A stretch of DNA of 48,468 nt from a virus: the IMG/VR virus record IMGVR_UViG_3300020477_000045, positions 1-48,468 of that record. One strand, 5' to 3'. Below are positions 7,217 through 45,262 of this stretch, one piece after another. The position numbers and the translations under genes were made by a program. The notes beneath the pieces were generated by a model. It saw nothing but the letters and a program-made list of their open reading frames with translations. It was not told the DNA's origin and ran no database searches. How positions within the stretch are numbered: the first letter of the stretch is position 1; every line of letters starts with the position of its first letter.

Positions 7217-7256
7217 TTTCTATCTCCTTCGAGTTATTAATTAAAAAGCGTTTAGT

Positions 7257-8165
7257 CTATAAACCGAACGCTTTGTCCAACGTATCGTCAAACCCTAATA
7301 TCTCGTTAAAAACAGCATCCTCTTGTGAAACTTCTTTGTGAGGATGACTACCTGCCGTAGCTAAAGATTTTGGTCTCTCTCTAGTCTTTTTCATCTGTTG
7401 AGAAACCTGCTCATTAGCATTCTTTGCTATGTTTTGTTCTCTAGACCCACGATTTTTCAGATAATAAATATCCTCCAACTCAAGAGTCTTGTTCTTAGCG
7501 AACTGAACAAATTCGGTCCATTCATCATCGTTCATTTTAAACTTTTGCTTAAATTCAGATTCTCTAGTGAGTTTCTGATTTTCACTTTTCTGAACTGCCA
7601 AAGCATTATTTAAACGCTTTTGAACAACTCCGTCAATAGTAGCAGACAAAAGTTTTCCAGAACCAGATGAAGGATCGCTTACCGCATCGTCAGGGTCAAA
7701 CACAAAATCTTCTCCCAATTGTAACTGTTCTTTCATATTTACAGGGGCTTGACCTCCACCCTCAAAATAATTCCGCACATGCTGAATTAAATTAGGGTCT
7801 TCTCTCATAGCATCGAGGATAGGCATATAAGGTTCAAGTTCGTTAAGCTTACCGTTTAAACGTTTGGCTTCTCTACTTGAATCACTATACCTCTTTTGCA
7901 GATTCTCAACATCCGCTTCACCTTCAACAGGGCTCTCTTGAGTTACCGCTTCAGCTTTTACAGGCTGAGCTTCTACCTCTTGAGGGGTTATCTGTTCTTG
8001 TGAAGGCTGGTCGTCTAATATACCACTATTAACTTCGTTATCAAGAGCCTCGAAAAAATCACCTGAATCGAAGTTCGTACTTTCGGGGGATTCACCTGCT
8101 AAAGCTTCAAACTGAGCTGCTTCCTTAGCGTTTAAATCGTTACCTACTTGTGCATTTTCACTCAT
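7257..8165 (-). CDS. Capsid scaffolding protein
   Basis: 302 residues, strongly acidic and Glu/Gln-rich, predicted mostly helical and disordered. It has no cysteine-rich or catalytic motif. The N-terminal 80 residues are Asp/Glu-rich; a coiled coil covers roughly residues 80-110 (VENLQKRYSDSSREAKRLNGK), and another the centre (VQKRLNNALAVQKSENQKL). Position between portal and capsid genes plus composition identify it as the internal scaffold that directs procapsid assembly and then leaves. AGAGG precedes the ATG. Confidence 0.8.
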   Translation of the reverse strand: MSENAQVGNDLNAKEAAQFEALAGESPESTNFDSGDFFEALDNEVNSGILDDQPSQEQITPQEVEAQPVKAEAVTQESPVEGEADVENLQKRYSDSSREAKRLNGKLNELEPYMPILDAMREDPNLIQHVRNYFEGGGQAPVNMKEQLQLGEDFVFDPDDAVSDPSSGSGKLLSATIDGVVQKRLNNALAVQKSENQKLTRESEFKQKFKMNDDEWTEFVQFAKNKTLELEDIYYLKNRGSREQNIAKNANEQVSQQMKKTRERPKSLATAGSHPHKEVSQEDAVFNEILGFDDTLDKAFGL

Positions 8166-8195
8166 ATTTTACCTCTTTTATGTATTTCCTTTAAC

Positions 8196-10481: not shown

Positions 10482-10674
10482 ATCTATTCCTTAAATCTTT
10501 TTTATCTTCATATAATCTTATACCAAGAATATCATATAAAGATTTTTTGAATTTGTTTTCATTGTATTTGAAAGTGCCAGGTGTATCAAGACTAGGTTTC
10601 TCACCAACGTTTGTATAGTTCTGCCAATAGTTACCACCTTTTAAAGGTTTTGATTTACTATCTTTAATATTCAT
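10474..10674 (-). CDS. Small protein between terL and portal, unknown function
   Basis: 66 basic residues beginning MNIKDSKSKPLKGGNYWQNY and ending YEDKKDLRNRYG. It starts 2 bases after the terL stop and overlaps the portal start, so it is part of the packaging operon. The C-terminal half (FKKSLYDILGIRLYEDKKDLR) looks helical. Role unknown. Confidence 0.65.
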   Translation of the reverse strand: MNIKDSKSKPLKGGNYWQNYTNVGEKPSLDTPGTFKYNENKFKKSLYDILGIRLYEDKKDLRNRYG

Positions 10675-10676
10675 AA

Positions 10677-12242
10677 TTAGGCTACTACCCAGCTTTTAGC
10701 TTTCTTTTTAGGTTTAAACCAACCCTTTTTATTCTCTTTTCTTTTCATATTAGGAGGAAAAGCGTGTAATTGTGAGTAATATAATGTCTCAATTGTATCA
10801 TCATGACTCATTTTCGGTCCAAATGTAACAATTTCGTTGATTAAATCAAACATATTTTTCCTTAAATGTACTGTTCCCATGCTTAATCTACCACTTAATC
10901 CACTATATATCCTATTTCTCTTGTTAGTTCCACCTGGTTTTTGAGGAATAACGGCAATATCAAATCTATTTAATCTTCTTCTTTCATCGTTTAAAGCTTG
11001 GAATATACTTCTATTCATAGCAACGTCTTCAACTGTAGCTGATACGCATTTGTACTTATCGTATAGCGAAATTATATAATCAACTACACCAGACTTTCCT
11101 AATATATTCCCATCAGCGTCTTTTGTTCCAATAGTAGGTATACTTCTATGTCTTTCATAGTCTACTACATATAATTCATTATTGGGATCAATAGCAATTA
11201 CCATTATAACACTAAAGTCAGAATGCTTTGTATCTATATCAGTTGCGGGGTCACAACCTATAAACGTATTAACAGGAACTTTTACTCCATCCTTTATTAA
11301 ATAATTTATACCATCTTCGTTTTCAACGTACCCGTTATAGTATCTAACGTGCTTCCTTGTCCAAACAGCATCTTCCTCACTCTGGACTTCCATCATATAT
11401 TCTTGAAAGAACTTATGAGGCTGTCCTGAATCCATATAGAATTTCTTCTTCTCTTCTAATTTAGACGTAGGAAAAAAAGATGCCCAGAGAGGAGTTCCAT
11501 CTTCTTGCGTTGCTTTATACGTAATTACCTTCCAAGCAAAATCTTTCCTACCATCCTTTTTAGCTTTTGAATGCTGAGTAAGAAGATTGTTAATAAAGGA
11601 ATCATAATGTACGGGAGTACCATTAACACGCAACCTGCCAGTATGAGGCTCAATTGCAGGATAAACAACGGCAGTGACAAGATTCGCATTCTTATCCCTG
11701 GCTTCTCTTGTGATTGTGTTAGCTTCATGTTCAAAGTCATCCAAAACGATAAGATCATATCTTTTATGTAACTTAGCTCCTCCCCTAATTCCTGCGACAT
11801 TACTTTTACTAATGAGTTTAGATCCATTTTTCAACTCTATATCTTCTTCTGTCCATTTTTTACCTCTTAACTCTCCAAAATAATACTTTATCCTGTCGTT
11901 ATATTCAAGATGATGTTTTATGTAATCCATATTCCCAACTGAAAGTTTTTGAGTAGCTGAAACCCATGCATAAAATAAAAAGTCATCTTTAGGACAAAAA
12001 ATAAAATCTTTTATAATAGATGCTTTAGTTAATATAGTTTTTCCATGACCACGTGGAACAATTATAGCTGACTGCTTTATGCTTTTATCATCTATAGCAT
12101 CAGCGACCTCATAGTGAAATGGAGGAGTCTCACTACGCATAAAATCTTCAGGTAAAAATAATTTTCCAAAAGCTATTAAATCTTTACTTGCTAAAAGAAG
12201 AGCATTCTCAGCATCGCTAACATTTTTTGTATTTATGTTCAT
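10677..12242 (-). CDS. terL: Terminase large subunit (ATPase and nuclease)
   Basis: 521 residues. Walker A is PRGHGKT (63-69) and Walker B is LIVLDDFE (164-171), forming the packaging motor ATPase. The C-terminal RNase H-like nuclease has a first acidic site in IGCDPATD (D331), a likely second in TVEDVAM (E405), and the closing SHDD at 479-482. The length is normal for the family. It pumps DNA into the procapsid through the portal and cuts the concatemer. Its start overlaps the stop of the 92-residue membrane protein gene by 4 bases. Confidence 0.95.
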   Translation of the reverse strand: MNINTKNVSDAENALLLASKDLIAFGKLFLPEDFMRSETPPFHYEVADAIDDKSIKQSAIIVPRGHGKTILTKASIIKDFIFCPKDDFLFYAWVSATQKLSVGNMDYIKHHLEYNDRIKYYFGELRGKKWTEEDIELKNGSKLISKSNVAGIRGGAKLHKRYDLIVLDDFEHEANTITREARDKNANLVTAVVYPAIEPHTGRLRVNGTPVHYDSFINNLLTQHSKAKKDGRKDFAWKVITYKATQEDGTPLWASFFPTSKLEEKKKFYMDSGQPHKFFQEYMMEVQSEEDAVWTRKHVRYYNGYVENEDGINYLIKDGVKVPVNTFIGCDPATDIDTKHSDFSVIMVIAIDPNNELYVVDYERHRSIPTIGTKDADGNILGKSGVVDYIISLYDKYKCVSATVEDVAMNRSIFQALNDERRRLNRFDIAVIPQKPGGTNKRNRIYSGLSGRLSMGTVHLRKNMFDLINEIVTFGPKMSHDDTIETLYYSQLHAFPPNMKRKENKKGWFKPKKKAKSWVVA

Positions 12243-15291: not shown

Positions 15292-15464
15292 TACTAGATG
15301 TTAATACTTAAATGCAATGAAAATCAAGACATAAATTCTATACCCTCCTTTCCCTCCTCATACTCCACCCATACCACCCATAGTGTATATATATAATATT
15401 ACTATAAGTATTATAATATATATATAATATGCGCGCGCGTAGGATAACTATGACCAAGTGATAC

Positions 15465-15493
15465 TTGAAAAAATTATAGCATTTTGTTATATG
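15465..15493 (+). promoter_or_regulatory. Candidate sigma70-like early promoter
   Basis: TTGAAA (15465-15470) and TATATG (15488-15493) are separated by exactly 17 bases, close to the TTGACA/TATAAT consensus (5/6 and 4/6). It would drive the rightward early genes from host polymerase. AT-rich sequence makes chance matches common. Confidence 0.45.
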
Positions 15494-15511
15494 TCCTTTT
15501 TACCCTCTATA

Positions 15512-15530
15512 CCCCTTATCAGGGGATTTT
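15512..15530 (+). other. Short hairpin in early leader
   Basis: CCCCT (15512-15516) pairs with AGGGG (15521-15525) around a TATC loop and is followed by ATTTT. It lies between the promoter candidate and the first early gene. It could act as a weak attenuator or stabilise the leader. Confidence 0.4.
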
Positions 15531-15603
15531 CATAAATCATTTTTTAGTTATTTTTGATTATTTAGATAATTATAGTTATTAATAATAATGAAAGGAGTCA
15601 GAA

Positions 15604-16584: not shown

Positions 16585-16592
16585 TACGTAGT

Positions 16593-16788: not shown

Positions 16789-16814
16789 ATGAATAACATA
16801 AAATAGGAGATAAT

Positions 16815-17153
16815 ATGTTTTTAAAATCAAACAATTATATGATTAATCTTGATAATGTCCAATACATCAGAAAAATTAGCTTAAAAGGTGATCCAGATGC
16901 TAAAGGGACATTCTTTAGAATGAATAATGGTAAGAGTATTGTAATTACATGCCCATATGAAAATGTTTATACTCAGATTAAGAATAAGCGTGGTATTAAT
17001 ACTATGAATACAGAAGTAATTGTTTTGTCTTATAAAACTGATCCCGTAAGAGAAGGTTTAAAGACTGTAGAACGTCAAAGACGCAATGGTGAAGATATTG
17101 TTGATAGATTAAGCAGATCAGAGGTTGAAGGAGAATATTATGACCCTAGATAG
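16815..17153 (+). CDS. Early protein, unknown function
   Basis: 112 residues. The N-terminal half (MFLKSNNYMINLDNVQYIRK, then GTFFRMNNGKSIVITCPYE) is a beta-barrel-like pattern of alternating strands ending in a basic middle. The C-terminal half is charged (KTVERQRRNGEDIVDRLSRSE). Good ribosome site (AGGAG). It overlaps the small membrane protein at 17140 by 14 bases. No confident family. Confidence 0.65.
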   Translation: MFLKSNNYMINLDNVQYIRKISLKGDPDAKGTFFRMNNGKSIVITCPYENVYTQIKNKRGINTMNTEVIVLSYKTDPVREGLKTVERQRRNGEDIVDRLSRSEVEGEYYDPR

Positions 17154-30111: not shown

Positions 30112-30300
30112 ATGAAAGATAAAGAAATTATTGATATGATAGAAGAAGTTCTGGAAGCAAATTTACAAGTATGTAAAATGATAAGAAATGAAAATTTAAA
30201 AAGTCAGAAAGAAGCTACTATGCTTATAGTAAGAAGTTTAAAAAAGATGGCTGACAATATAATAGAAGATGATAAAGCTATGTATAAGGTTAGGATTTAG
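30112..30300 (+). CDS. Last early gene, small helical protein
   Basis: 62 residues, acidic-basic helix (MKDKEIIDMIEEVLEANLQV, then LIVRSLKKMADNIIED). AAAAGGAG precedes it. Its stop overlaps the convergent 916-residue gene by 11 bases, leaving no space for a shared terminator. Confidence 0.65.
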   Translation: MKDKEIIDMIEEVLEANLQVCKMIRNENLKSQKEATMLIVRSLKKMADNIIEDDKAMYKVRI

Positions 30301-33040
30301 AAAGCATTGCTAAAGCTTCTTCCATTTCTGGGGTTAAAACAGATGCTAGAGCTTTCTTCGCTTCTCGCTGTTTCTTCCTTGCTTCAGCTGTCGGATATAA
30401 ACCAAGTTCTGACTGAGCTGCCCATCCAATACGACCTTCTAATATTTGGGGTATGTGCCTTTCGGTCATTCTTCCCAAAAAGGTGTTCAAAATACGAATC
30501 TTTTTAGATATTTCTGTTGATTGTCTACTTGGATCATAATTCTCTAATCCTGTAATAAGAGTTAATAAACCATCTTCATCAAGCTCTATTAAGTCTAATT
30601 GCATACCTATATCAATTAAATCAGATGTTAATGGACCTCCAAACGTACTAATAAGAGGACCCTTTCCATAAAACGCTTCAGCTATTTCATCGTCATCACC
30701 TGTTAATAATGTTGCAAACTGACCGATTCTTTGAGCTGTGTCATGTTCAACAAGGTTTCCAAAATTAACACCAGATAATGCAGATGCAACAGCTGGAGCT
30801 GCGAAATATAATAGAGCCATCCTAGATGCTTTAGCAACACCTTGAGCATCATCGCCTGGTAATAACTTACCTGCCATAATATCGTGTTTTGCTTCTCTTG
30901 CTATCTGTATGTTTCTTTCTAAAAATTCAAATGAGTAATGCTGAAACTGACCTAATACTCTACCATATTTATTACGAAGAAGTCTTGATTTTGCATAATC
31001 ACCATAATCAAAGTGATTCATTACAACCATGTTAATAGCGTAATTCTCAGCCTTCTTTCTAATCTTAGCATCTATTTCAGCAGGAGTTATAGCGTCTCTA
31101 CCCTTTTTAATTCTTTCCTTACCCCTTTCACTATTTTCAGCTTCAGCTTTTAAAATGTTTCTATAATTAGGATTATCTAACCATTTATGCAATTGAGCAA
31201 ATGCTATTTTAAAAGTATGCTTTCTATTAGAGTTCTCAGCTTTTCTATGTAATATAGATGACTTAGCAGCTATTGCTGACATTGCATCCGCAACTTTCTC
31301 AAGTCTTGGTTTTCTAGTTGCTTCAAATTTACCTGTTTGATTATTATACTGAACAGTTTTAAACATAGATGCTGGCGTTTGTAATGCGCTTTCTTGTATT
31401 TCAGGTACAGCTTCTTGATATAGCAAACCAGTTCTTTTTAAAACACTTTCAATAAATGAATCTGTTTCACCTGGTGTCTCAATAGTTTTTAAATAATCTT
31501 TAGCATTCCTAACCATTACAGGACCCCAATTAACGTAGTCTAATAGCCTCTGGAAAGCGTTTCTAGCAGCACCTCTAGGGTTAATACCAAGTTTTGATAT
31601 AAACTCAAATGACAACAATGATCTCATAACATTTCTAGTTGTAGGGCTCATTTCAAGATTACCATTAGCAGCCATATGTAAATCAGTTATGTAATTAGTA
31701 ATATTCTCAGCGTAACCCTTAGCATTTTTATCAGCTTTATATATTTTCTCTATTGCTGTTAAACCTTCTATCATATGAGCATCCATAAATGATATATAAT
31801 TAAATCTATTAACATCAAATACATAGTTATTTAAAACGCTAAACAAGTTCCTATTATAGTCATATTCTGTTCCACCCTGCTTTCTTCCTTTAGCATGATT
31901 TGTTATATGTGTATTAATAGAACCTATTATATCATCAATACTCCTAGAACCTTTTTTATATTTATTAGCTGTATTTTGCATATCTTGAAAATCAGCCATT
32001 AAACCATCCATAAAAGGTATATGCATATCTCTAGAATAATGTGGGAAATAACCATCTTCATATCTAGGCATTAATTCAGCAGTTAGTTTTTTCTTTAACT
32101 CTTGCAATTCAGCAGCTGACCTCTTATCGCCATCCCTTGAAATTTTATTAGCAATTGAATCAACTCTTTTTGAAATACCTCTTCTTAAAACAGCGTATAA
32201 ATCATTGGTGAGGTTCATATAGTGAGTCATAGCTTTATACATATTATCTGATATTGGTTCACCATTAGACATCTTTAACTTGGCTAAATCATCTTTTGTT
32301 AACTTAACTCTCTTCCTACCTTCATCTACATCTTTTTTCCACTTTTTATTAACAGACTTTTTCTTATAAACTTCTTTTAATATTGCAGGTATTCCAGTGT
32401 CAACATTTTCAATCATATTTAACATATCAGCATGCACTTCATAAAACGTCTCTTTTACAAGATCATCCATCTTTTGTCTAACCTCTGAAAGCTTATTATC
32501 GGCACCTTTTACATTATTCTGCCAATCTGCTATAGCTTTTCTCCATTGGTAATCCAATTCCTCCATCTGTTTTCTAGCATTTCTTATACCAAGTTTAGAT
32601 TTTAACCCTCTGTCAGTAGCTTCTGCTTCAACAGACTTCATCATGGCGTTGATAAGATTGCCATGTCTTAAAACACCTTCTTGTTGATAAAATGTACTTC
32701 TAGACATATTTCTTAAAACAGAACCTATTACAGGGTCTTTCTTTCCCATATGTGACGATTGCCAAAATACTTGAGAAAACTTATTTCCTAACTGACCTCT
32801 TTCAACTTGGTTGTTTAACTCATTTAATCTTGATTTATAACTACTTACTTGACCCTTAGTCATGTCTCTATTATGCACCATATCTTCTAATGGAGCCCCA
32901 AACTCAGACTCTACAAGCCTAAGAGCTGCTTCATAAGGGTCTTTAAAGAAAAACTTAGTTTTGTTTTTACCAGCCCATTCTTCAATGCCATCAATTAGGC
33001 TTTCTACATTTTTATTTACAAATTGACAAAAATCTGCCAC
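30290..33040 (-). CDS. Large internal virion (ejection) protein, GTG start
   Basis: 916 residues, starting with GTG at 33040 after GGGAGG. Long helical stretches (ELNNQVERGQLGNKFSQVF, AELQELKKKLTAELMPR) and an amphipathic middle dominate. A tract near residues 735-760 (SRMALLYFAAPAVASALSGVN) is hydrophobic enough for membrane contact. A GYFPHYSRD-type turn lies near residue 338. It is the final gene of the late operon beside the giant protein, so it probably belongs to the ejected internal complex. No catalytic motif is visible. Confidence 0.7.
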   Translation of the reverse strand: MADFCQFVNKNVESLIDGIEEWAGKNKTKFFFKDPYEAALRLVESEFGAPLEDMVHNRDMTKGQVSSYKSRLNELNNQVERGQLGNKFSQVFWQSSHMGKKDPVIGSVLRNMSRSTFYQQEGVLRHGNLINAMMKSVEAEATDRGLKSKLGIRNARKQMEELDYQWRKAIADWQNNVKGADNKLSEVRQKMDDLVKETFYEVHADMLNMIENVDTGIPAILKEVYKKKSVNKKWKKDVDEGRKRVKLTKDDLAKLKMSNGEPISDNMYKAMTHYMNLTNDLYAVLRRGISKRVDSIANKISRDGDKRSAAELQELKKKLTAELMPRYEDGYFPHYSRDMHIPFMDGLMADFQDMQNTANKYKKGSRSIDDIIGSINTHITNHAKGRKQGGTEYDYNRNLFSVLNNYVFDVNRFNYISFMDAHMIEGLTAIEKIYKADKNAKGYAENITNYITDLHMAANGNLEMSPTTRNVMRSLLSFEFISKLGINPRGAARNAFQRLLDYVNWGPVMVRNAKDYLKTIETPGETDSFIESVLKRTGLLYQEAVPEIQESALQTPASMFKTVQYNNQTGKFEATRKPRLEKVADAMSAIAAKSSILHRKAENSNRKHTFKIAFAQLHKWLDNPNYRNILKAEAENSERGKERIKKGRDAITPAEIDAKIRKKAENYAINMVVMNHFDYGDYAKSRLLRNKYGRVLGQFQHYSFEFLERNIQIAREAKHDIMAGKLLPGDDAQGVAKASRMALLYFAAPAVASALSGVNFGNLVEHDTAQRIGQFATLLTGDDDEIAEAFYGKGPLISTFGGPLTSDLIDIGMQLDLIELDEDGLLTLITGLENYDPSRQSTEISKKIRILNTFLGRMTERHIPQILEGRIGWAAQSELGLYPTAEARKKQREAKKALASVLTPEMEEALAMLSKS

Positions 33041-33041
33041 T

Positions 33042-36000
33042 TTACCTCCCTGGAAAACATTGTTTTAGTTTCTCTATCTTTTCTCTAGCATTTGTAGATT
33101 TAATGTTTAATTTATGATCGTACATTTCTAATGTATCTTGCATCTGTCTAAGAGATTTTAATCTTTCTGGTGAAAATCTAGCTGACTTCTCAAAAGATAA
33201 TCCTTTAAAATAATTTGATCCACCTATAAGAGCATATACTGGGTTATTCTTTATTCTTTGAATAGTTAAATTATCGTTCTCACCCATAAGAGCTTCATTT
33301 GTTAATACTCTTCTAGCTACATCAATCATATCTTTATCCATTAAACTTCTCTTGGCAATATAATCCATAGGGTCGATAACTTCATTCTTCATCATCATTG
33401 CAGATAAATCACTCATACTATTTAAATATGACTGCCATTCTTTTTCTTTCCCAGCTGCTTTCATAATGTCAGCATAGAAGTCAAGTAAATAATCATTTGT
33501 TAACTCCATTCCATTAGTTTTACGCTGAGTATCTCTAGACCATTTTATATCTCTAAAAGATGTAAATGTTTTTCTATAACTCTTATTAAAGGATGGTAAT
33601 CTAACATCTGTCATTTCTAGTGTAGATAATAAATCATAGTTAGCATCAAGTTCAAACCCTTTGCTTTTAAACTGCTGTTTCATATCATATCTAACATCTC
33701 TCATAGCATTTTCTTTATTAAAATACTCACTAAATCTTTTCTCAATCAACTGATGCATTCTTAATGTTGATTTAACAGTATTATTAAAAGGGTTCATATA
33801 AGCACCTACTTCACCATTTAAAACATCTATACCTTGAGCTGTCTCACTTAAAAACTGAAGACCTCTAGAATATCTAGTAGTAGGTCCATATGGAACAGGT
33901 ATTGGCGATCCTTCAAAAACTCCAACAGCATACTTATTTTCAACTGGACTCATAAATGCATATATAAATTGTTGCCCATATTTTTGCAATCCTTTAGTCA
34001 GTAAATCTGTTTCTATCTTATAATACTCAGTTAAATCTGGATAATGCTTTAATAGCTCCCTTATTTCAGGTGTGTATAGTGTCTTATCACCATATTTCTT
34101 TATATCTTTTAAACTATCCCTATTGCTATAAAACAATCCTCTTATCATCTTTATATGCTTTAAAAGTTTTTGAGCTTCTGCCCCTAATCCCCATGTAGGA
34201 CTATCACCTATAAATGGCATAGTTTTTCTAAATTGTCTCATAGTTGCAAACTGTATAGCGCCTTCTATAGCTTCTTTATTATTTAATGCTTGAAATTCTA
34301 TAGTTTTTAAATCCTTGCTTTTCTTAGATTTTTTATATTTATCAGGCAACCAATCCCATATAATCTGTTCAGCATCTTTAATATCTTTATTCATCTTATC
34401 TTGGATTGCTTTTCTTGATTTATAAGGAATGTTAGTATTTCTACCGACAGCTGCCCATTTCCTTTTCATATCTTGTATATATTTAACCCTCTTATTAACA
34501 CTGTTTTTCGTACTCTGAACTTCTCGTAATATATCTTTAGCAGCTGCTTCGGAATTTAAAGCATCGCCAGCAATCATGCTTTTATACCATGTATCCATAT
34601 ATCCAACAATATCACCAGTTAGAGAGCTTACCTTTCTATCACCAAACACATCTTCTGCGTGAATCCTCATTAGTATTCTTTCTAAAGGAGCTCCTCTGTC
34701 ACCTTTTGCAAACGCAACACCTCTACCTTTAACAGTTGTGTCAAAAGGTTGTATAGTTGATTTACTATAATCAATCTTCTTTCCTTCTCTATTTTTAAAA
34801 GTAGCATCTCGAACACCAAATAGATTAATAAAATCATCATCACGTTTCCATTTCTTAGAACTTGGATCACCAGGCACTGAATTTCTATTCTTTAATCTGT
34901 CAAACACTGACTTATTTATATCAGAAACAAAATCTGCAAATTCCCCACTAGCTGTAAACATATCATCGTAATTAATGCTTTTCTTAGAACCAGATTTTTC
35001 CCACATCTTCTTACCTGATGCATTAAGTAATTTTCCATACTCACTTAATAATTCTTTTATAACAGCCATCTCTGCATTATTTAAATCGACCTCACGATAT
35101 TCACCCGTTTTTCTATCAAACTCTACTTTCCTAAATATCCTAACCCTCTTACCGTTGCTGTGTCCTTCTCTTCTAACATTATTAACAAACCCTATTTGAT
35201 TGTTAGATTGTTCCCCAGGGTGTATAGATTCTGATTTAGTTGGGAATAAAAACCTATTTGACCAGCTTGACATATCTTTAGCTATGTTATGATTTAATTC
35301 AGTACCATCTATAATAAATTGAGTTTCTAAAGCAGCTCTTGTAAAAAAGTCTAAATTGCTATAATCAAACATTATTTTTGCATCACCACTACTAAATAAA
35401 ATCTTAGGATTTACCTTATTACCATTTCTATCAACTCTTGAAATGTGTTTAGAATATCCATCTTCTAAATCTGTATATGCAAGCTTCTCTATAAATCCAA
35501 GTTTTCTAGGAATCTTTTGAACAGCTCCAATCGATCTTTTAAACAAATCAGAACTAGCTGCCATCTCGCCAATCTTTGCATTTACACTTGATATATCACC
35601 TCCAAAATTAAAAGATGAATCCTTGCGAAATTTCGATGGGTCGATACCTTGAACAAAGAACTTGGAAGACCTTTCAACATGGTCATACATTCCCCTTCTT
35701 GATGACATAAAGTAATCTATCTTATCAGCATCATAATCACCTTCAAATACGTTTACAACGTCTAAACTTCCTAAAGTAGCTGAATTACCATAAGCCTTTT
35801 CAAGAAACCCTTTTAAACCAACAATAGTCATATCATTAGGTCTTGTTCTAGGTTTTCTATTAACTATAATACCAATTTGAGTATCCTTTGGAATATCTCC
35901 CAGCTTAATGTGAGTTTCAAGCATCTCATGTAAAGTACCTAAATTCCCATAATCAACGTATTCTTTCCATAATTCACGAGCTTTATCAACATCACCTTTA

Positions 36001-39000
36001 GTAAAACCTTTAAAAACATCTTCTGGTTTTAGAATTTCACCATTTCTTACAAACCTAATAGTTCTACCGTTAGATGTTAGATCCCGTAAAGACATCTCTG
36101 CTTCATGAGCTGGTAACATGACTTCTCCCCTAACTATCATCTCACCATTGTTCCTAACTAGACTAGACTTTAATCTATGATAAGCTGTAGGTATTTGAAC
36201 AAGAACTGACTGCCCACCATATCTAACTGATTCTCCTTGTTCAGGTATTGCATTATCATATTGAACATCTTTTGATCTCATGTTGTTAATTACATTATTA
36301 AGATAATGATCAAAAAGTTGATTCTTAACTTTTCTAGGACTGTGACTCATAGGGTTTGCATCTCTAGAAAGACCTGCCCAATAAATTAAACTACTAAACT
36401 GAGCAGCTGATACATTTGCAACAGGATCAGACATTAAGTTAGAACCTTCAACTGTGTCCATAACCCATTTTCTTATTCCTATAGGATTCTCAAGAACCAT
36501 ACTCATTCTTCTTAATCCTTCTTCTATTGGATTTCTATAATCAGCCTCATAAACCCTACCAGATTCAGCATTTGTCATAAAATTATAATCACTCTGAGAC
36601 CTTGGAGCATTAGAAATTGGAGCATCTTTACTAGGTAATATTCCTAAAGAATCTAAACTTATCTTTCTATTTACCTCACTAGAAAACCCTCTACTTTCAC
36701 CTGTTAACGCTTCGTAAGGAGCATTAATAATAGTAGGATCAAGCTGTCCAGGTTTTACAGTTTCATTGTATAGTTTTGCTCCTGTCTTTGTTAGTAGAAT
36801 ATCAGTGCTTGGATTCTTCTTAAAAAAGTTCTCTAACTCAGGTGTATATATAAATAATGTTTTACCATATAATAAAGGAGAATTGCCGGCCGATGATATT
36901 ATAGGTTTAAACGGGTTTAAAGAGTTTGGATTATGACCTACACTTGTATGACCATATCTCATAACATCTTTACTTACAAAAGCTATACTATCGAAAGCAG
37001 ATGTATCTAAATGCCCATCTCCTATTACATCAAAATTCCAATTCTCTATTTTATTATCTTTTAAAAACTTCTCTACTTGGTCTCTTATCTTTGCGAACTC
37101 AGCATCATTCCATATTGCAACACCAAATCCTTTTTTATTAGCAAACTTTCTGAAAACTCTATAAGTCTCCTTGTCCCCAATTTTTTCATATGCCCGGGCT
37201 ACATCTATAGCAAATGGAACATCGTTCCTTACAAATCTTTTAGTGTTGTAAAGCTTTACTCTACCTAATGTTTTATGCATATCAAGATTGGGATCAGAGT
37301 TTAATACCTCTAAAAACTTCTTACCTCCACCACCGACACCTTTAGAATTGCTATGCAACATATCTCTAAGAGTTAAAAGTCTTAAAGCAAATTCATACTC
37401 AGCAGGTGTTGAAGGTATATCACTTTCAAATGATTCTCTTATTTGAGTTATATTTCTTTTAACATTAGCAGACACAGCATCGCTAGTTTCAAACAGTTTA
37501 GCAAACTCAAGAAATGGTTTCTCTACATTTTTAAAATGTCTCATCTCTACAGCTATAGCATTCATCTCAGGAAACAATCTGAAAGCATGAACACCTATCT
37601 CATTATTCTCACCTTTTATATTCTCTCCAAATAGCTCTGTTCTACTATTTAATGTATTATTTAACTCATTCTTATATCCTCTTATGGATTTTCTTTGCTC
37701 GGGGGTTAGATTTTTATTTTCTCCAAAAGCATCTACGTAAACAAGTCTTGTATATCTACCACCATCGGCAAGTTCATAAAAAGAAGCTGTTGAATCAACT
37801 ATTCTAAATGGAACTTTTAGATTATCATTTAGGAAATTACTCAACCTACTTACTTGTTGAGTTTCTTCACTTTTTATTACTCTTCCATTCTGAAATTTTA
37901 TAACACCTACTTTTACCTGAGCTCTTTGAGTTGCAAATAAACCTATAAGATCACCAGTAATCTCAGGCATCCTATTTTTCTGTTCTTTCTTGGGAAGCTG
38001 TTTAAAAGGTATAAACTTACCATCTTTCTCTACATGAACTTCTTTTAAAACATGATCTAATATATTATCATGTAATAGCTTCCTATCTTTAGATTCATAT
38101 ACAAGTTTGTCCCAAGTATCAAGTCTTTCTTCAGATGTATATTCTGATACATCTTCTCCTCTAATACGATATTTCTTAAAAAAGTCTTGTAATGTAATAT
38201 GTTTTTTATAACCAACTTCGTCTAAGTCTCTATACATAGCATCTCTAGCCTGCTTTTCCCATCTCTGGTACTCAGCTTCTGCATATATTCTACTTACACC
38301 ATATCTTTCTATCTTTTCAAGAACATCTTTATTTAAGGCTTCGTTAAACTTCTCTACAGATATAGTATAATTAGATTTTTTCTTAGAATCAAACTGTATA
38401 ACTCCAGCTTGTTGCAACCACGTTGTAAGCCTTTCAGTTCCTCCTTCTGCCATAAATAAATTCATTCTACGCTTTGTTTCTTCCCATCTAGGTGATAATA
38501 CATTCATAAATTCTACTAATGTAGCTCTAGCTGAAACGCTTGCTTGCCCTGTTTGCTTTAAAGCTTCTTTAGCTCTTATTGCCATACCTTCATCGAATAC
38601 TTGAATTTTCCTAGTATCTTCTATAACTAAACCTTTACCATCATCTATCAGCTTTTTAACTTGATTATTATACTCTCTAGCTAATTTAATATTCTGTCTA
38701 GGGACAGCTGCTTCATCCATATACATAACTGTAAACCCAGCTGTTTTACCTTTAACCGCTAAGCCAATTTGTGCAAACCCCATTTCAGATAAGCTCATTA
38801 ACCCATCTACTTGCCATAGTTGTAGTTCAGTTCCCTTTATTCTCTCTTTCATCATATAGTCAGCTATAGCTTCATGGACAAAATCTTTCATAAATTTTAC
38901 ATCATATCCTCTTTCAGCCATAAACTCTTTTAGAGCATTTACTCTATTTATATCAACCTTAATAGTTTCAGTGCTTGCAGTTCTAATTTTTTTATATGTA

Positions 39001-41555
39001 CCTGACAAACTTGAAAGAGTTAACACTCTATTTAAAAATCTCTTAGCTTCAGATGCTTGATCAGTTCCTTCTTTAGCACCTGTTATTTCTATATTCTTAG
39101 TGCTATTTATTAATCTACCATCTACTCTTCCAAAAGGTTGGTCAACTAGACCAGCTTCTCTCATAAGACCTGACATCTTATCGTATTCAGCAAAATCTTT
39201 ACTAAACATTCTATTTATTAAATCAGCTGAGTTTAATATAGAATTTCTAATAGCTACATCTACATAGTCACTAGCTGAGTCTCTATATGAGAATCTGTCA
39301 GCCATGAAAGATTTATCTGGAAACATAGACATGACATTGCTCTCACTTGCCTTAACTATTTCATATGCACTTCTTAATAGCTCTTCAGACTCAATAACTT
39401 TAACTTTTTTATCAGGGGCTGTCTTACCTTTATTTATAAAAGGCATAACATCTGAGACTGTAACAAGACCTTCTATAGCATGAATTAAATCTGTCTCAGG
39501 GTTTTTACTATCTTTAATCCAATCAAGTTCTCCGTTTCTAGCTTTCTGAAGTAAAGCCTCGGATATTTCTATATTAAAAGGAAGTCTATTGTTTTTAGGG
39601 TTTGCAGGGTCAATATGGATACCAAGTTCACCATTTACATCAGAGTTTCTAACGTCTTCTACTAAATCTGTAAGGATACTTTCAAAATCTTTAGCTTTTT
39701 CTTTGTATGCTTTATCGAATATTTCAGATAGCTCTCCTTTTGGCTCTATCCTTCTAAATTCTCTAACAATAGCTTCTGCTTCTTTAACTGATATTGAATC
39801 TAAATCTTTTGAAACTTTACCAAATGATATTAACCATCTATATATAGCATTAAAATCGTTATTTGGCTTTTGTTTTACACTTATCTCTCCAGGTGGTAAT
39901 CTATGTTCAATATCCTCAGCTCTATCAGCTATAAGAGGGCTATCCATATTCTTAGCAAAATCTACAAGAGGTTGAAACTTATCAGCACTTAGAGGATTTG
40001 TTAATCTATTTTCTGTGTACCTAAATGATGGTATTTCTCTTAACTGTTCAGGGTTATACCCTAAAAGCATTAGATTTTCTCTAACTTGATTTATTTTATT
40101 ACTCTTTAACCTAATATCCCACTTAGCTGGGTTAGCGTGTCTTTGAACGTAAGCACCTATAAGGAAATGTGGAAGTATATCAGCTACATCTGCTTCAAAA
40201 TCATGAGCATACATATCATAAAAAGTATGAGCGTTAAACAGTATACCACCAGCTGTCATTCTAAACCAATTCTCTTGCATATTGGCTAATGACTCCCCAG
40301 TTGACCATTTCATCATCTCTCTACCCCAGTATCTTCTATCTTGCTCAAGAGCTTTTAATAAAATCTTTTTACCATCAAAGCCAAGACTTTCTATTTTTTT
40401 ATCAAGATGTTTACTGTTAAAGTTTATAGTGACGTCTTTACCTTTCCAATTAACAGTTCTTTTTGTGGAAGCTCCGTGATTCTTAGCTGACTCACCTAGG
40501 AACCTGGCTGAACTAATTAAATATTCTAAAGGTTTGTCTTTATATACATCCTTTTGAAACGCAGCTCTAACACCGTGTTTGAAATCTCTAAACCAAGATG
40601 CTCCCTTTCCTTTAGGGTTTAACCACGACAACTGACCGAACATAGCGCCAGTACCAACACCCCAAATAGGAGCTGTCCAATCATAGTGATTATCTTCATA
40701 CATACTAACACCTTCAAAAATACCATCAATCATTCCAAACATTAAAGCATCGTTAATTGAATGCCCTAAAACTCTAGCTAATCTTGGATTATCTTTTAAT
40801 ATTCCCCTAGCTTGTATTAATCCTATAAAATCTTGTAAAGGTCTTGTATTGTAATTATCACCAAAAGCTTTAATTATAGCTTGTTTATGAGCATCTGTCA
40901 AATCCCCTCTTGCAACAGCATTATCTACAAACCTATTCAACCAAGTCTCCGAAGCCTCTTTAAAAGCCTTACCTTGCATAGCAGGGTCTTTTTGAGCACC
41001 TCTAACTAAACTTGTATATCCCTTAGTTAAGTCTTTTCTCCATTTTTTATCTATACCAGCTTTTACTAAGTTTTTCTTTATACCCCTAACCATGGTATCA
41101 GCTGATTCTTTACCAGCTCTAGTAATAAAAGGTTTGGCAATTTGAGCTACAGCTTTAGCCCCAACCTTCATAGGAGCACCAGTTACAAACCCTGCAAATC
41201 CACCAACGGCTCCAAATGTTTTTGCCCAAGGGTCTTGGAAGTCTATAAACTCTTCTTCTTTAGTAAGAGCTCCTGGTACTCCGAATGCAAACGTATCCGC
41301 AAACGACCATAAAGTAGCCCCTAAAGCATTTAAAGCGGTATTACCAGTAGTAGATGAGGGAATATTAGAAACAGACGGACCACCGGGTAAGGAAGGACCT
41401 CCCTGTAGTGCTCTTAAAGCTTGTAACTGAGGTGTATTGTCTTGCTGTGTGTTTACCCCATTCTGTTGGAGTATTCTAGCAATATCGTCTTGAGAGACGA
41501 TTTTACCTCTTTTACGTAGCTCTTCTTGTACTCTTAAAGTAAGATTGTCTGGCAT
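33042..41555 (-). CDS. Giant virion protein with putative two-barrel RNA polymerase core
   Basis: 2837 residues, 8.5 kb and about 18% of the window. The N-terminus has an amphipathic helix (LTLRVQEELRKRGKIV) and a Gly/Ala-rich membrane-seeking tract near 74-125. Residues 1938-1947 read EGDYDADKID, a DxDxD metal site with Asp1940, Asp1942 and Asp1944, preceded by NRKPRTRPND (1899-1908). About 350 residues earlier there are lysine-bearing strands: FKP (1549-1551), GK (1564-1565) and TGAK (Lys1594). This order fits two-barrel RNA polymerases (QDE-1, YonO, crAss virion polymerase). An ejected RNA polymerase is inferred; an enzymatically inactive internal protein remains possible. Confidence 0.75.
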   Translation of the reverse strand: MPDNLTLRVQEELRKRGKIVSQDDIARILQQNGVNTQQDNTPQLQALRALQGGPSLPGGPSVSNIPSSTTGNTALNALGATLWSFADTFAFGVPGALTKEEEFIDFQDPWAKTFGAVGGFAGFVTGAPMKVGAKAVAQIAKPFITRAGKESADTMVRGIKKNLVKAGIDKKWRKDLTKGYTSLVRGAQKDPAMQGKAFKEASETWLNRFVDNAVARGDLTDAHKQAIIKAFGDNYNTRPLQDFIGLIQARGILKDNPRLARVLGHSINDALMFGMIDGIFEGVSMYEDNHYDWTAPIWGVGTGAMFGQLSWLNPKGKGASWFRDFKHGVRAAFQKDVYKDKPLEYLISSARFLGESAKNHGASTKRTVNWKGKDVTINFNSKHLDKKIESLGFDGKKILLKALEQDRRYWGREMMKWSTGESLANMQENWFRMTAGGILFNAHTFYDMYAHDFEADVADILPHFLIGAYVQRHANPAKWDIRLKSNKINQVRENLMLLGYNPEQLREIPSFRYTENRLTNPLSADKFQPLVDFAKNMDSPLIADRAEDIEHRLPPGEISVKQKPNNDFNAIYRWLISFGKVSKDLDSISVKEAEAIVREFRRIEPKGELSEIFDKAYKEKAKDFESILTDLVEDVRNSDVNGELGIHIDPANPKNNRLPFNIEISEALLQKARNGELDWIKDSKNPETDLIHAIEGLVTVSDVMPFINKGKTAPDKKVKVIESEELLRSAYEIVKASESNVMSMFPDKSFMADRFSYRDSASDYVDVAIRNSILNSADLINRMFSKDFAEYDKMSGLMREAGLVDQPFGRVDGRLINSTKNIEITGAKEGTDQASEAKRFLNRVLTLSSLSGTYKKIRTASTETIKVDINRVNALKEFMAERGYDVKFMKDFVHEAIADYMMKERIKGTELQLWQVDGLMSLSEMGFAQIGLAVKGKTAGFTVMYMDEAAVPRQNIKLAREYNNQVKKLIDDGKGLVIEDTRKIQVFDEGMAIRAKEALKQTGQASVSARATLVEFMNVLSPRWEETKRRMNLFMAEGGTERLTTWLQQAGVIQFDSKKKSNYTISVEKFNEALNKDVLEKIERYGVSRIYAEAEYQRWEKQARDAMYRDLDEVGYKKHITLQDFFKKYRIRGEDVSEYTSEERLDTWDKLVYESKDRKLLHDNILDHVLKEVHVEKDGKFIPFKQLPKKEQKNRMPEITGDLIGLFATQRAQVKVGVIKFQNGRVIKSEETQQVSRLSNFLNDNLKVPFRIVDSTASFYELADGGRYTRLVYVDAFGENKNLTPEQRKSIRGYKNELNNTLNSRTELFGENIKGENNEIGVHAFRLFPEMNAIAVEMRHFKNVEKPFLEFAKLFETSDAVSANVKRNITQIRESFESDIPSTPAEYEFALRLLTLRDMLHSNSKGVGGGGKKFLEVLNSDPNLDMHKTLGRVKLYNTKRFVRNDVPFAIDVARAYEKIGDKETYRVFRKFANKKGFGVAIWNDAEFAKIRDQVEKFLKDNKIENWNFDVIGDGHLDTSAFDSIAFVSKDVMRYGHTSVGHNPNSLNPFKPIISSAGNSPLLYGKTLFIYTPELENFFKKNPSTDILLTKTGAKLYNETVKPGQLDPTIINAPYEALTGESRGFSSEVNRKISLDSLGILPSKDAPISNAPRSQSDYNFMTNAESGRVYEADYRNPIEEGLRRMSMVLENPIGIRKWVMDTVEGSNLMSDPVANVSAAQFSSLIYWAGLSRDANPMSHSPRKVKNQLFDHYLNNVINNMRSKDVQYDNAIPEQGESVRYGGQSVLVQIPTAYHRLKSSLVRNNGEMIVRGEVMLPAHEAEMSLRDLTSNGRTIRFVRNGEILKPEDVFKGFTKGDVDKARELWKEYVDYGNLGTLHEMLETHIKLGDIPKDTQIGIIVNRKPRTRPNDMTIVGLKGFLEKAYGNSATLGSLDVVNVFEGDYDADKIDYFMSSRRGMYDHVERSSKFFVQGIDPSKFRKDSSFNFGGDISSVNAKIGEMAASSDLFKRSIGAVQKIPRKLGFIEKLAYTDLEDGYSKHISRVDRNGNKVNPKILFSSGDAKIMFDYSNLDFFTRAALETQFIIDGTELNHNIAKDMSSWSNRFLFPTKSESIHPGEQSNNQIGFVNNVRREGHSNGKRVRIFRKVEFDRKTGEYREVDLNNAEMAVIKELLSEYGKLLNASGKKMWEKSGSKKSINYDDMFTASGEFADFVSDINKSVFDRLKNRNSVPGDPSSKKWKRDDDFINLFGVRDATFKNREGKKIDYSKSTIQPFDTTVKGRGVAFAKGDRGAPLERILMRIHAEDVFGDRKVSSLTGDIVGYMDTWYKSMIAGDALNSEAAAKDILREVQSTKNSVNKRVKYIQDMKRKWAAVGRNTNIPYKSRKAIQDKMNKDIKDAEQIIWDWLPDKYKKSKKSKDLKTIEFQALNNKEAIEGAIQFATMRQFRKTMPFIGDSPTWGLGAEAQKLLKHIKMIRGLFYSNRDSLKDIKKYGDKTLYTPEIRELLKHYPDLTEYYKIETDLLTKGLQKYGQQFIYAFMSPVENKYAVGVFEGSPIPVPYGPTTRYSRGLQFLSETAQGIDVLNGEVGAYMNPFNNTVKSTLRMHQLIEKRFSEYFNKENAMRDVRYDMKQQFKSKGFELDANYDLLSTLEMTDVRLPSFNKSYRKTFTSFRDIKWSRDTQRKTNGMELTNDYLLDFYADIMKAAGKEKEWQSYLNSMSDLSAMMMKNEVIDPMDYIAKRSLMDKDMIDVARRVLTNEALMGENDNLTIQRIKNNPVYALIGGSNYFKGLSFEKSARFSPERLKSLRQMQDTLEMYDHKLNIKSTNAREKIEKLKQCFPGR

Positions 41556-41567
41556 TAAAGTCTTTCA

Positions 41568-42842
41568 CTAATCACCAAGTTTTGCCCTATCACGTTTTAA
41601 TTTTTCTATCTGAACAATTATAGGGTTCATTTCTGCGGCTATAGTACCTTGGCTATACATACCACCTGGAACTGATCTTGTTTCCATGGTAGATTGATCA
41701 ATTAACTCATTAAGTCTATCCATTTCAGCTTTTATCGATTGAGCTCTATCACCTTTAATACCTTCTCTAGACTTCCAATATTTCCATCGATCCTTAAGCG
41801 GAGCTAATTGTTCTTTGTATTCTTTTCTTTGATTAAACATTTCCTCTCTAGCATCTCTCATTGGGATTAATAGTTGCTCTTTTTCTTTTATTTCCTTACT
41901 AAGTTGATCTACCTGAGATTGTATAAGCTTTTTATCTTCTTCACCTAAATAATCTATAGACTGCATAACATCTTGACCTGTTGCATACTTAGATGTCTGA
42001 ACCGTTAGAGGTTTTTTATCTCCCTCAATCTCGATAAGACTACCATCATCACCTAATTTAAATTGACCTTCAATAAGGTCTGCTAAATTACCTGCGTCTT
42101 GATTATTTAAAGCTTCATCCATCAATCTTTTAGCTTCTTCTGTATTATAACCTTGCTTTAAAGGCTCTATTCTAATATCTCTACCAGCTTCTATATTATA
42201 ATCACCTTCCATCATCTCTGAGAACTCAGCTGCTATATTATTTAACACTTCATAACCTTGATAAACACCTCTAAAAGGTTCTAAGCTCATCTTCTCTTTG
42301 CTCTCATCTCCAAGATTTATCATACCAGATGATATAAAAGGTAATAAATTAACAGGTATATTATTTCCTTCTTTGTCATAAGGTCTAAGAACCTCATTAT
42401 AATAATCGTATTCTGAGTATGCTTGTCTTGCTAGTTTAGATGCTAATAAGGCTCCTTCTTTTTTAGTAGCTGGTTTTTGATATAATACCATCATAGTATG
42501 TATATCGTTAATCTGGGCATCTGAAAAACCTAAACCTTTTTCTCCCATTTTCTTCGCATCTATTTCAACTTCACCATCTTCTTTAATTTCTATATAAGGC
42601 AATCTTAAAAACTTGGTATATATTTGACTTTGATAGTCACCAATTTGTTCTTGTGTAGCTGTTCTGCTTGTTTGCAAACCTCTCCACATATCTTCTCTAC
42701 GTCTAGATTCTTTTCTAAAATCCATCTGAGCTTGGCTTTCAAGCATTTGTAAAGCCATATTCATATCAGCTGTCTTAGATTGTCTATCAATCCTTAAAGA
42801 CTCTAAATAAGCTGATAATACATCGTTTGCTAATCCCGGCAT
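41568..42842 (-). CDS. Internal virion/tail protein, coiled-coil rich
   Basis: 424 residues. The N-terminus (MPGLANDVLSAYLESLRIDR) is followed by a long helical region. A strong heptad coiled coil occurs near 300-360 (LIQSQVDQLSKEIKEKEQLL onward), and a second helical segment ends the protein. It lies upstream of the giant gene in the same operon. The probable role is part of the ejection complex or a chaperone-like partner for the giant protein. No enzymatic motif is seen. Confidence 0.7.
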   Translation of the reverse strand: MPGLANDVLSAYLESLRIDRQSKTADMNMALQMLESQAQMDFRKESRRREDMWRGLQTSRTATQEQIGDYQSQIYTKFLRLPYIEIKEDGEVEIDAKKMGEKGLGFSDAQINDIHTMMVLYQKPATKKEGALLASKLARQAYSEYDYYNEVLRPYDKEGNNIPVNLLPFISSGMINLGDESKEKMSLEPFRGVYQGYEVLNNIAAEFSEMMEGDYNIEAGRDIRIEPLKQGYNTEEAKRLMDEALNNQDAGNLADLIEGQFKLGDDGSLIEIEGDKKPLTVQTSKYATGQDVMQSIDYLGEEDKKLIQSQVDQLSKEIKEKEQLLIPMRDAREEMFNQRKEYKEQLAPLKDRWKYWKSREGIKGDRAQSIKAEMDRLNELIDQSTMETRSVPGGMYSQGTIAAEMNPIIVQIEKLKRDRAKLGD

Positions 42843-42851
42843 AATAATCTC

Positions 42852-43460
42852 CTAACTGAACATGCTCCTAAAAGCTCCGCCCCAACCTGTTTTCTTCTTT
42901 TGCTCTCTCCTTGCATCTTGAAGTTGGCGTATTTGCATATCTACTTCTGCTACCCCTTTAGAATGTTGATCTTCTAATCTTTCGATCTCTTGACCATATT
43001 TATCAACCATACCTTCATATGAAACATCATGAGCCCTTCTTATCTTAGATTCAACTCTATCTTCCCCTGTGTATCCGGGACCGACTGTAGCGAACCCAGT
43101 TTTAGCTTTAACATTTTCAACTCCTCTAAAAGCATCATACAAAGAACTTCCAGTTCCATATGCTAAATTTGTAACTGAGGTATCATATCTATCTTCAGCT
43201 ATATCGAGGTTCTGTTGGTGTAAATTTACTAAATCTTGCTTTGAAGCTTGAGCATCAGATATTTGATTGTCTATAATTCCAATTTGCTCCCAAGCCTGTT
43301 TTGCCGACCCTATTGCTTGAATCCCACCAGTTAATAAGCCAAGACCCATAGTAACAGGACCTCCTGCTAAACCTCCAAGACCAGCAAGCTGACTAATACC
43401 TGAATTTCCAGCTGCCTGCATTAAGCTATCCATTTTATTTACACTACTTATTAAGCTCAT
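42852..43460 (-). CDS. Internal virion protein with glycine zipper, probable
   Basis: 202 residues. The first 60 residues contain a glycine-rich hydrophobic stretch (ISQLAGLGGLAGGPVTMGLG, LLTGGIQAIGSA), as in ejected proteins that insert in membranes. The rest is helical and charged (RIRRAHDVSYEGMVDKYGQE-like). Located between two virion genes, so a role in the DNA-ejection channel is inferred. Confidence 0.7.
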   Translation of the reverse strand: MSLISSVNKMDSLMQAAGNSGISQLAGLGGLAGGPVTMGLGLLTGGIQAIGSAKQAWEQIGIIDNQISDAQASKQDLVNLHQQNLDIAEDRYDTSVTNLAYGTGSSLYDAFRGVENVKAKTGFATVGPGYTGEDRVESKIRRAHDVSYEGMVDKYGQEIERLEDQHSKGVAEVDMQIRQLQDARREQKKKTGWGGAFRSMFS

Positions 43461-43468
43461 AACTTCTC

Positions 43469-45262
43469 CTATGGAATATAATTTTGACTTCCACCTTTGT
43501 AAGCAGGTTTCTTATGGGGATCAAAAGATGGATCATCAAGACCTTCAAATAGTTGAGGATTTTCTGAAACATAGTCTGCTTGAGACACTAATAAATTTCC
43601 ACCCATAAATGATTCGGCAACACCTTCTTGACTCTCCATAGGTTTATAACTGTAACCTTTTGATGTCATCTTGTCTTTTTGAAAACCTAAAAACATTTTA
43701 GCTACTTGTCTAACTAGGTTTGGTTTATCATAAAAATCTGCATAATCACCATGAGATTTAATAACGTTATCAACAATCTTGCTTTGCTTACTGTCTAAAT
43801 TATCTAACATCTTAGTTAATCTTCCCCTACCCATCTTTCCACTTTCAGCAGCTGTTACAATATCTAAAACACCTTTTCTTCCTTGTTGCCAAGCTAGATA
43901 CCTAGTCGCTTTTTCATCTAATCCATGACTATCCATCATTTGAAATACATTAATTTTTCCATCCTTCTTACCTACAAATTGATAATCACTTTCAAGCTCG
44001 TAACTTCCAAAATCAGATGTGAGTTCAGATGTTTTCTTTAAGTAAAAGTCTGAGACTTGTTTCATATCTGATATATCAACACCAGCTGCTTCAGCTTCTG
44101 TCTTCATAGCCTTTATTTGAAGTGGGTTATCTTTAGCGTCTTTATCTGTTCCCCAACTGGATTCCATTCCCATAGCTAGAGATACTTCACCAGCAACTTT
44201 AGGATCAGGGTATAATGAATGTATTTGTTTCTTAACATCGTCAACACTTGCAGTTTCTAAAGAAAAAGTATCAGGTTCAGACAAAGCATCAACTATAGAA
44301 CCTTCAGGGTCACCAGCTGCTTCAGGACCTAGAGGGTCTTCCTCAAGTATTCCCATTTGTTTTTTAGCTAATTTAGTAGCGGCACTATCAACTTCCATAG
44401 CTTTTGAATCTTCTAAGAGTTGTTCCTTCGTTAATCCCATTTCTTCAGCTGCTTCACCAAGGTCATCAGTTATATTTTGATCTCTCTGTTCTGAAAAATC
44501 ACTTAAAGATTCTTCTGTGATACTCATATCTGGTTCATCAAAATTAGTTAACGATTCTTCAATTACTTCATTATCTACTTTTTCAGCTTCAGGTTTAAAA
44601 GCATCAGATGGGTCATCATATTGACCAGCGTACTCTGATTCTTGAACTGGATCAGGACCTGGTAAATCGTCTTCTACTTTAGGAGCTTCATCTGGTTTAG
44701 ATAGACCAGCTTTAGATAAGACACCACTTAGTTTTTCACCAACAATATCTTTTAAATCTCCCATTCTTTCTTTAAAAGATTCATCGCCTTGTATTCTACC
44801 TTCATATTCTTTAAACGAATCATGAACAAAAGAGCCTTCAGGAGCCTTATCATATCTAGTTTCCATGCCCATCATTGTTTTCTTTCCTAGAGCATGCATA
44901 ACTGAATCAGTTAATTGAACACCTGATTCTTTATCAAAATAAGTCTTTCTAACTTTAGGGTCTAAACCTAAAACAGCTCCCACACTTCCTAAAGGTTGAT
45001 ACTCTTCAGATTTAGTTGCTATACCTTCTAGGTTTCCAGCTGCATCTTTAAATGCTTCAAATTCTGAAGCTTTCTTCTTTTCTTTTAAAATATTACCAAC
45101 ATCCATAACAGCTTTAGACACGCCAGACCATAAATCTTGTCTTTCAGAATAATCTTGAGCAGATTGTTGTCTATCTAAATCTCCGTATTGAATGCTTTGT
45201 TGGTTGCCTAAAAATGATTTTCTAGTTTCCGCTCTAGCTTTATATTTGCCTATGTCTGCCAT
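43469..45262 (-). CDS. Virion protein with transglycosylase-like C-terminus
   Basis: 597 residues. The N-terminal 340 residues are charged, acidic and probably disordered. Residues about 350-520 look like a lysozyme-fold (SLT) domain: catalytic-type Glu367-Ser368 in AMGMESSWGTD, NPLQI at 379-383, and YLAWQQG at 455-461 in place of AYNxG. It would cut peptidoglycan locally during ejection. The missing Asn in AYNxG makes activity less certain. It is the only murein-cutting candidate in the window. Confidence 0.7.
   Translation of the reverse strand: MADIGKYKARAETRKSFLGNQQSIQYGDLDRQQSAQDYSERQDLWSGVSKAVMDVGNILKEKKKASEFEAFKDAAGNLEGIATKSEEYQPLGSVGAVLGLDPKVRKTYFDKESGVQLTDSVMHALGKKTMMGMETRYDKAPEGSFVHDSFKEYEGRIQGDESFKERMGDLKDIVGEKLSGVLSKAGLSKPDEAPKVEDDLPGPDPVQESEYAGQYDDPSDAFKPEAEKVDNEVIEESLTNFDEPDMSITEESLSDFSEQRDQNITDDLGEAAEEMGLTKEQLLEDSKAMEVDSAATKLAKKQMGILEEDPLGPEAAGDPEGSIVDALSEPDTFSLETASVDDVKKQIHSLYPDPKVAGEVSLAMGMESSWGTDKDAKDNPLQIKAMKTEAEAAGVDISDMKQVSDFYLKKTSELTSDFGSYELESDYQFVGKKDGKINVFQMMDSHGLDEKATRYLAWQQGRKGVLDIVTAAESGKMGRGRLTKMLDNLDSKQSKIVDNVIKSHGDYADFYDKPNLVRQVAKMFLGFQKDKMTSKGYSYKPMESQEGVAESFMGGNLLVSQADYVSENPQLFEGLDDPSFDPHKKPAYKGGSQNYIP

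Follow-up and report, generated by a model that had tools for sequence, protein, structure and literature searches.

The viral DNA analysed here (the window; 48,468 nucleotides, IMG/VR record IMGVR_UViG_3300020477_000045) encodes a minus-strand protein of 2837 residues. An initial annotation had proposed a two-barrel RNA polymerase carried in the virion. The open reading frame and the motifs quoted in its support were all confirmed in the translated product: GDYDADK at 1939–1945, whose D1940, D1942 and D1944 form the sole DxDxD of the protein, NRKPRTRPND at 1899–1908, FKP at 1549, GK at 1564 and TGAK at 1591–1594. However, DxDxD is uninformative by itself, because about one is expected by chance in a shuffled protein of such size (mean 0.93 per shuffle); the case for a polymerase must therefore rest on context, conservation and fold.

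The protein has no meaningful match in Pfam, PHROGs, NCBIfam or, by phmmer, among PDB sequences. Searching 50,697 phage records by tblastn gave no meaningful match with the 2837-residue protein and none with distant family members as queries; no cultured phage yielded a relative. When viral sequences were first scanned with this one protein as query, no relatives were returned. A scan of bacterial and archaeal genomes for the host of the phage found none. The route into the family was provided by terminase and portal scans of IMG/VR, which yielded a large group of relatives, including two long contigs with giant homologues 38% identical over their full length. Alignment-based scans with homologues returned 25 loci first and 74 in a wider scan, with complete reading frames of 2824–2980 residues. 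A caspase-7 hit of a three-member profile against PDB sequences (E 0.19) was dismissed as chance. We also observed a lineage-specific insert of ~111–116 residues near the counterpart of residues 1857–1888 (loci L183, L185/L258, L251 and L257), immediately ahead of the strand that runs into the RxPxTRPND motif; the one member scanned whole had no Pfam match.

The motifs singled out initially, namely the DxDxD, the lysines and the R-x-P segment, are conserved across the family. All 66 related proteins compared retain D1940, D1942 and D1944 together with the lysine-barrel invariants K1550 (codon 36906–36908), K1565 and K1594, and the same holds for P1902, T1904, P1906, D1908, G1939, Y1941, R2017, Q2079, D2083 and R2137; R1900 is kept in 65/66 and R1905 in 63/66, with K in the remainder. 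Residues 1901–1950 form the best-conserved 50-residue block (26-sequence alignment; mean top-residue share 0.77), followed by 1551–1600 and 1501–1550, and most other blocks lie at 0.4–0.6. These numbers bear on whether the protein could be a degenerate polymerase whose sole remaining role is structural, as an ejection (internal core) protein. Just part of the giant chain is polymerase-like, and channel or cell-wall functions are common among giant internal virion proteins; however, the triad and the lysines are invariant while whole proteins are ~28–40% identical, and distant homologues also keep DxDxD, so that we consider such degeneration highly improbable.

The fold was predicted with AlphaFold2 for residues 1200–2350 from 22 sequences (model 1; pLDDT 75.5, pTM 0.72) and for residues 1400–2260 from 66 sequences (model 2; pLDDT 78.9, pTM 0.82). 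In Foldseek searches of the PDB, both models retrieved first 6VR4, the virion RNA polymerase (vRNAP) of the crAss-like phage phi14:2 (E 2.6e-8 and 2.3e-8, respectively; probability 1.00). Ranks 1–50 of model 1 comprise DNA-dependent RNA polymerases only. Model 2 gave 47 matches, with QDE-1 at ranks 2 and 3 (E 1.3e-4 and 5.5e-4), followed by subunits of the AR9 and PhiKZ nvRNAPs at E just above 1e-3. Global TM-scores to 6VR4 are low (0.31–0.33), with long gapped alignments. The best matches in BFVD are viral proteins without a name (E 4.5e-44), then crAss-like phage proteins. QDE-1 and crAss gp66, the two references against which the initial annotation had suggested looking for two barrels, were thus both retrieved, and its order of a lysine barrel followed by a DxDxD barrel is upheld by these fold matches together with the modelled strands. 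It had placed the barrels around 1520–1600 and 1890–1950; model 2 has lysine-barrel strands at 1551–1554, 1562–1569 and 1586–1596, and aspartate-barrel strands at 1780–1785, 1806–1814, 1892–1899, 1909–1917, 1925–1928 and 1946–1949.

In both models the DxDxD barrel is followed by a 38-residue helix in the position of a bridge helix, as judged by position without residue superposition. The helix and loop beyond it contain the invariant Q2079, D2083 and R2137, and model confidence is partly low there; the loop with the first aspartates is also of low confidence (pLDDT <50 at 1932–1943 in model 1 and at 1936–1940 in model 2). The same models address the possibility that the protein is not an RNA polymerase but a PolD-like two-barrel DNA polymerase or some other protein with a DPBB. 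Both barrels are common to PolD (PMC10770324), and expansins and other small barrels were matched by model 2 at E >1. Nevertheless, the 47 matches of model 2 include no PolD chain, the significant ones are all RNA polymerases, and the bridge-helix-like helix further speaks against PolD; we find this possibility scarcely tenable. Identity as a two-barrel RNA polymerase is very likely, in the absence of enzymology.

Profile comparison with the crAss polymerases points the same way. Using the phi14:2 gp66 sequence from the phage's own record, gp66 RIPNQGQSSNDPLQIVGILPEAMGD...GSDFDIDKMY parallels NRKPRTRPNDMTIVGLKGFLEKAYGN...EGDYDADK of the window protein (NRKPRTRPNDMTIVGLKGFLEKAYGN...EGDYDADKIDYF). 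Aligned by hhalign to ~72 crAss RNA polymerases, the window family scored 48.8–49.2 (P ~1e-4, with a probability of only 56–60%), against 18–21 for reversed profiles and a mean of 23.2 for 60 block-shuffles (sd 3.7, maximum 37.1). The alignment pairs DYDAD with DFDID, and NPFKP...GK...TGAK with QPLKG...YLKYSQ...DGVKVG of gp66. As far as sequence profiles can tell, the match to the crAss RNA polymerase family is clearly above shuffled controls. The two proteins have in common a single chain with the lysine barrel before the DxDxD barrel, a place within a giant structural protein, and the extended motifs KP/KG...K...K and RxP...ND...GxL...DxDxDK. They differ in that aligned identity is ~14%, the phage groups are distinct, the window genome is about half the size, and the window core lies deep in its chain, with ~1400 residues before and ~580 after it.

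The neighbourhood of the gene suggests when the protein is made. The late operon runs on the minus strand from TerS, an exonuclease-like gene, TerL, a P22-type portal and an SU10-type major capsid protein (MCP) through further structural-type genes; it ends, across the contig ends if the genome is circularly permuted, with proteins of 121, 828, 597, 202 and 424 residues, the polymerase and a 916-residue protein. In podoviruses, ejected proteins are commonly encoded at such a late-end position. The 597-, 202- and 424-residue proteins are possibly the rest of an ejection module, and that of 202 residues has a Gly-rich hydrophobic stretch. The 916-residue neighbour matches NF032893 (PLxRFG tail domain of phage proteins) at E 2.5e-6, far below the model's cutoff. 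A membrane-seeking N-terminus had also been claimed for the giant protein; a Gly-rich, mildly hydrophobic stretch does exist at ~106–148, but no segment reaches the usual transmembrane threshold, which leaves this claim weakly supported. The early block (plus strand, 15.6–30.0 kb) carries Cas4-like and Erf recombination genes, DUF932, Dam, DnaB and a Holliday junction resolvase.

Two packaged systems provide precedent. In P23-45, a two-barrel polymerase fused to the tape measure is packaged and transcribes the pre-early genes (PMC10770324), and in phiCrAss001, polymerase-associated proteins were found in virions, and their ejection was modelled to precede that of the DNA (PMC10172136). Like the window protein as inferred here, P23-45 gp96 is a giant virion protein that encloses a two-barrel vRNAP and is carried into the cell, but its clamp-less core lies at the N-terminus, in fusion with the tape measure of a long-tailed phage (PMC10770324); its structure (8h2n) matches model 2 only non-significantly (E 3.3). 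QDE-1 (PDB 7Y7S/7Y7P) shares the single-chain two-barrel fold, whereas it is a cellular RNA-interference enzyme that is not packaged. The giant virion RNA polymerase of N4 (Schitoviridae) is likewise packaged by a podovirus, but is a T7-type single-subunit enzyme of unrelated fold. TerL of the window matches, at ~24–25% identity, terminases that include those of Erwinia MIF8 and Stenotrophomonas Pokken, which we take to be N4-like phages.

A two-barrel RNA polymerase need not be a virion component, however: it could be made and used during infection, like P23-45 gp64 or the nvRNAPs of AR9 and PhiKZ. The fold matches do include the latter two, and virion data are absent. Against this, the gene lies where the late structural operon ends, outside the early plus-strand block, and a giant chain surrounds the polymerase core, as it does in the packaged gp66 (2180 residues) and gp96 (5002 residues), whereas the nvRNAP gp64 is compact (616 residues). 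We therefore regard a non-virion role as unlikely. Packaging and injection of the giant polymerase appear likely, an inference that relies only on late-operon position and precedent, without virion data; by analogy with phiCrAss001 and P23-45, it is most likely packaged and used to transcribe early genes.

Our preferred reading, which we hold with considerable confidence, is that of a single-chain two-barrel DNA-dependent RNA polymerase within a giant virion protein, packaged, ejected and transcribing early genes. Its computed basis consists of conserved catalytic motifs, the predicted fold, the phi14:2 vRNAP as closest fold, late-operon position and dozens of family members, while packaging, ejection, activity, template and promoter are inferred. 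We envision that the core (~1400–2260) would be made late, embedded in the giant virion protein, then packaged and ejected into the cell, either together with the DNA or before it. There, the DxDxD-bound metal and the barrel lysines (which of them is catalytic is not assigned) would serve RNA synthesis, and the early plus-strand genes could be transcribed before, or without, the host polymerase. The features are listed below.

Table 1. Features of the window, with the basis of each assignment.
Feature	Position	Strand	Basis
Giant protein, putatively a two-barrel RNA polymerase packaged in the virion	33042..41555	minus	ORF and translation, 2837 aa
Lysine barrel (DPBB-B) core, residues 1535–1600	36756..36953	minus	66/66 conservation, model strands, hhalign pairing with gp66
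Aspartate barrel (DPBB-A), residues 1775–1955, RYGGQ to GDYDADKIDYF	35691..36233	minus	Model strands and conservation
RxPRTRPND motif, R1900–D1908	35832..35858	minus	Conservation; counterpart of gp66 RIPNQGQSSND
D1940-x-D1942-x-D1944, predicted catalytic metal-binding triad	35724..35738	minus	66/66; aligned to gp66 D1361/D1363/D1365
Candidate bridge helix, residues 1988–2025, 38-residue helix	35481..35594	minus	Both models; invariant I2009, G2010, R2017
Candidate trigger-loop region, residues 2068–2140, helix and loop after bridge helix	35136..35354	minus	Position only
916-aa downstream neighbour of polymerase	30290..33040	minus	Gene-by-gene comparison; weak PLxRFG tail domain match
424-, 202- and 597-aa proteins upstream of polymerase	41568..45262	minus	Position; family matches weak or chance-level
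Late-operon head genes: SU10-type MCP, P22-type portal, TerL	5681..12242	minus	Pfam/PHROGs
Conserved non-coding element before early operon	15443..15600	plus	Alignment of 36 distinct sequences; occurs once in the window

Packaged two-barrel RNA polymerases were already known from crAss-like phages and P23-45. What is new is a polymerase family unrecognised by Pfam, PHROGs and NCBIfam, in small non-crAss phages (~48 kb here). Because the portal, TerL and MCP families (phrog_156, phrog_38 and phrog_1328 (SU10_MCP)) differ from those of phi14:2 (phrog_6547, phrog_6681 and phrog_11589), the window phage is not crAss-like and, on these gene assignments, is outside Crassvirales. A separate and apparently common phage group is thereby added, whose genomes are roughly half as large as those of crAss-like phages. 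Since dozens of related phages carry the polymerase core, crAss-like phages are not alone in opening infection in this unusual manner, with packaging inferred. The family also supplies expressible cores for enzymology and helps to show where QDE-1-like enzymes belong among the polymerases of phages.

Two reading frames near the start of the window (1786–2844 and 2860–3402, minus strand) weakly match PHROGs of large virion structural and tail-fibre proteins, down to 4e-8, and are a possible receptor-binding region; neither has a counterpart in the five relatives compared below. Regarding genome ends, no relative spanning the window's end junction was found. In a related contig of 47,095 bases (G028; loci L261 and L347), the polymerase reading frame is split over both ends, but a direct join is out of frame; it was therefore rejected as proof of a closed circle, and a circularly permuted genome of ~47 kb is only suggestive. 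When the ends of the window are joined, open reading frame 3–1439 stops after 4 more codons, which is compatible with circular permutation and not proof of it.

Gene-by-gene comparison of the window with five relatives (G002, G003, G004, G018 and G020) reveals how unevenly the genome diverges. TerL is 80–84% identical, the portal 62–66% (85% over a 169-residue fragment at the contig end of G002) and MCP 54–59%. Polymerase identity is 37% in G003, 36% in G018 and 26% in G020, and by tblastn the window polymerase was not found in G002 (TerL 84%) or G004 (TerL 80%). The 916-residue neighbour follows, at 49, 46 and 30% in G003, G018 and G020 and 23 and 24% in G002 and G004. The same place is occupied in G002 by a giant of 2943 residues with DHDGD and in G004 by one of 2980 residues with DFDVD, and the more distant G029 (TerL 34%) has a giant of 3771 residues with DYDFD. 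The G004 giant keeps VKP...LLKT...ALK as counterparts of K1550, K1565 and K1594; that of G002 is almost unalignable to the window protein, yet DxDxD is still present, as is LGK...AK (K1565 and K1594). The polymerase and its 916-residue neighbour thus vary together, and far more than TerL, portal and MCP do, which suggests that the two form a linked cassette. Their joint divergence implies either much faster evolution than that of the head genes or exchange, and the two are not separated. We lean slightly towards the broader proposition that widespread podovirus-like phages of ~45–50 kb package a crAss/QDE-1-type RNA polymerase which, with its 916-residue partner, makes up a cassette that is exchangeable or diverges fast. 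If true, the cassette would suggest that the first enzyme entering the cell is repeatedly replaced or is under arms-race selection. With polymerases that differ so much, these close relatives also form a natural series for studying promoter choice.

In the early region, ~230 nucleotides without an open reading frame lie between early genes (16584–16815, plus strand) and look RNA-like by eye; as a structured RNA this stretch was rejected, since its folding does not surpass that of shuffled copies (z -0.77) and Rfam gave no match. A search of the region for a vRNAP promoter identified none, and the single conserved element there is not specific to polymerase type. This strongly conserved element, ~150 bp long, lies in front of the early operon in dozens of relatives. 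It is a candidate early promoter (vRNAP or host-type) or origin, without promoter data; we do not call it a vRNAP promoter because its conservation does not track polymerase type, being common to the window and G002 (locus L011) despite their greatly different polymerases. Its consensus, with an A-rich/TTTTGATAT core, centres around AAAAAATTGTAGGATTTTGATAT, followed by CCTTTTT, a C-rich/G-rich hairpin (C4-5/G4-5) and TTTAGTTA..TTTCATTT.
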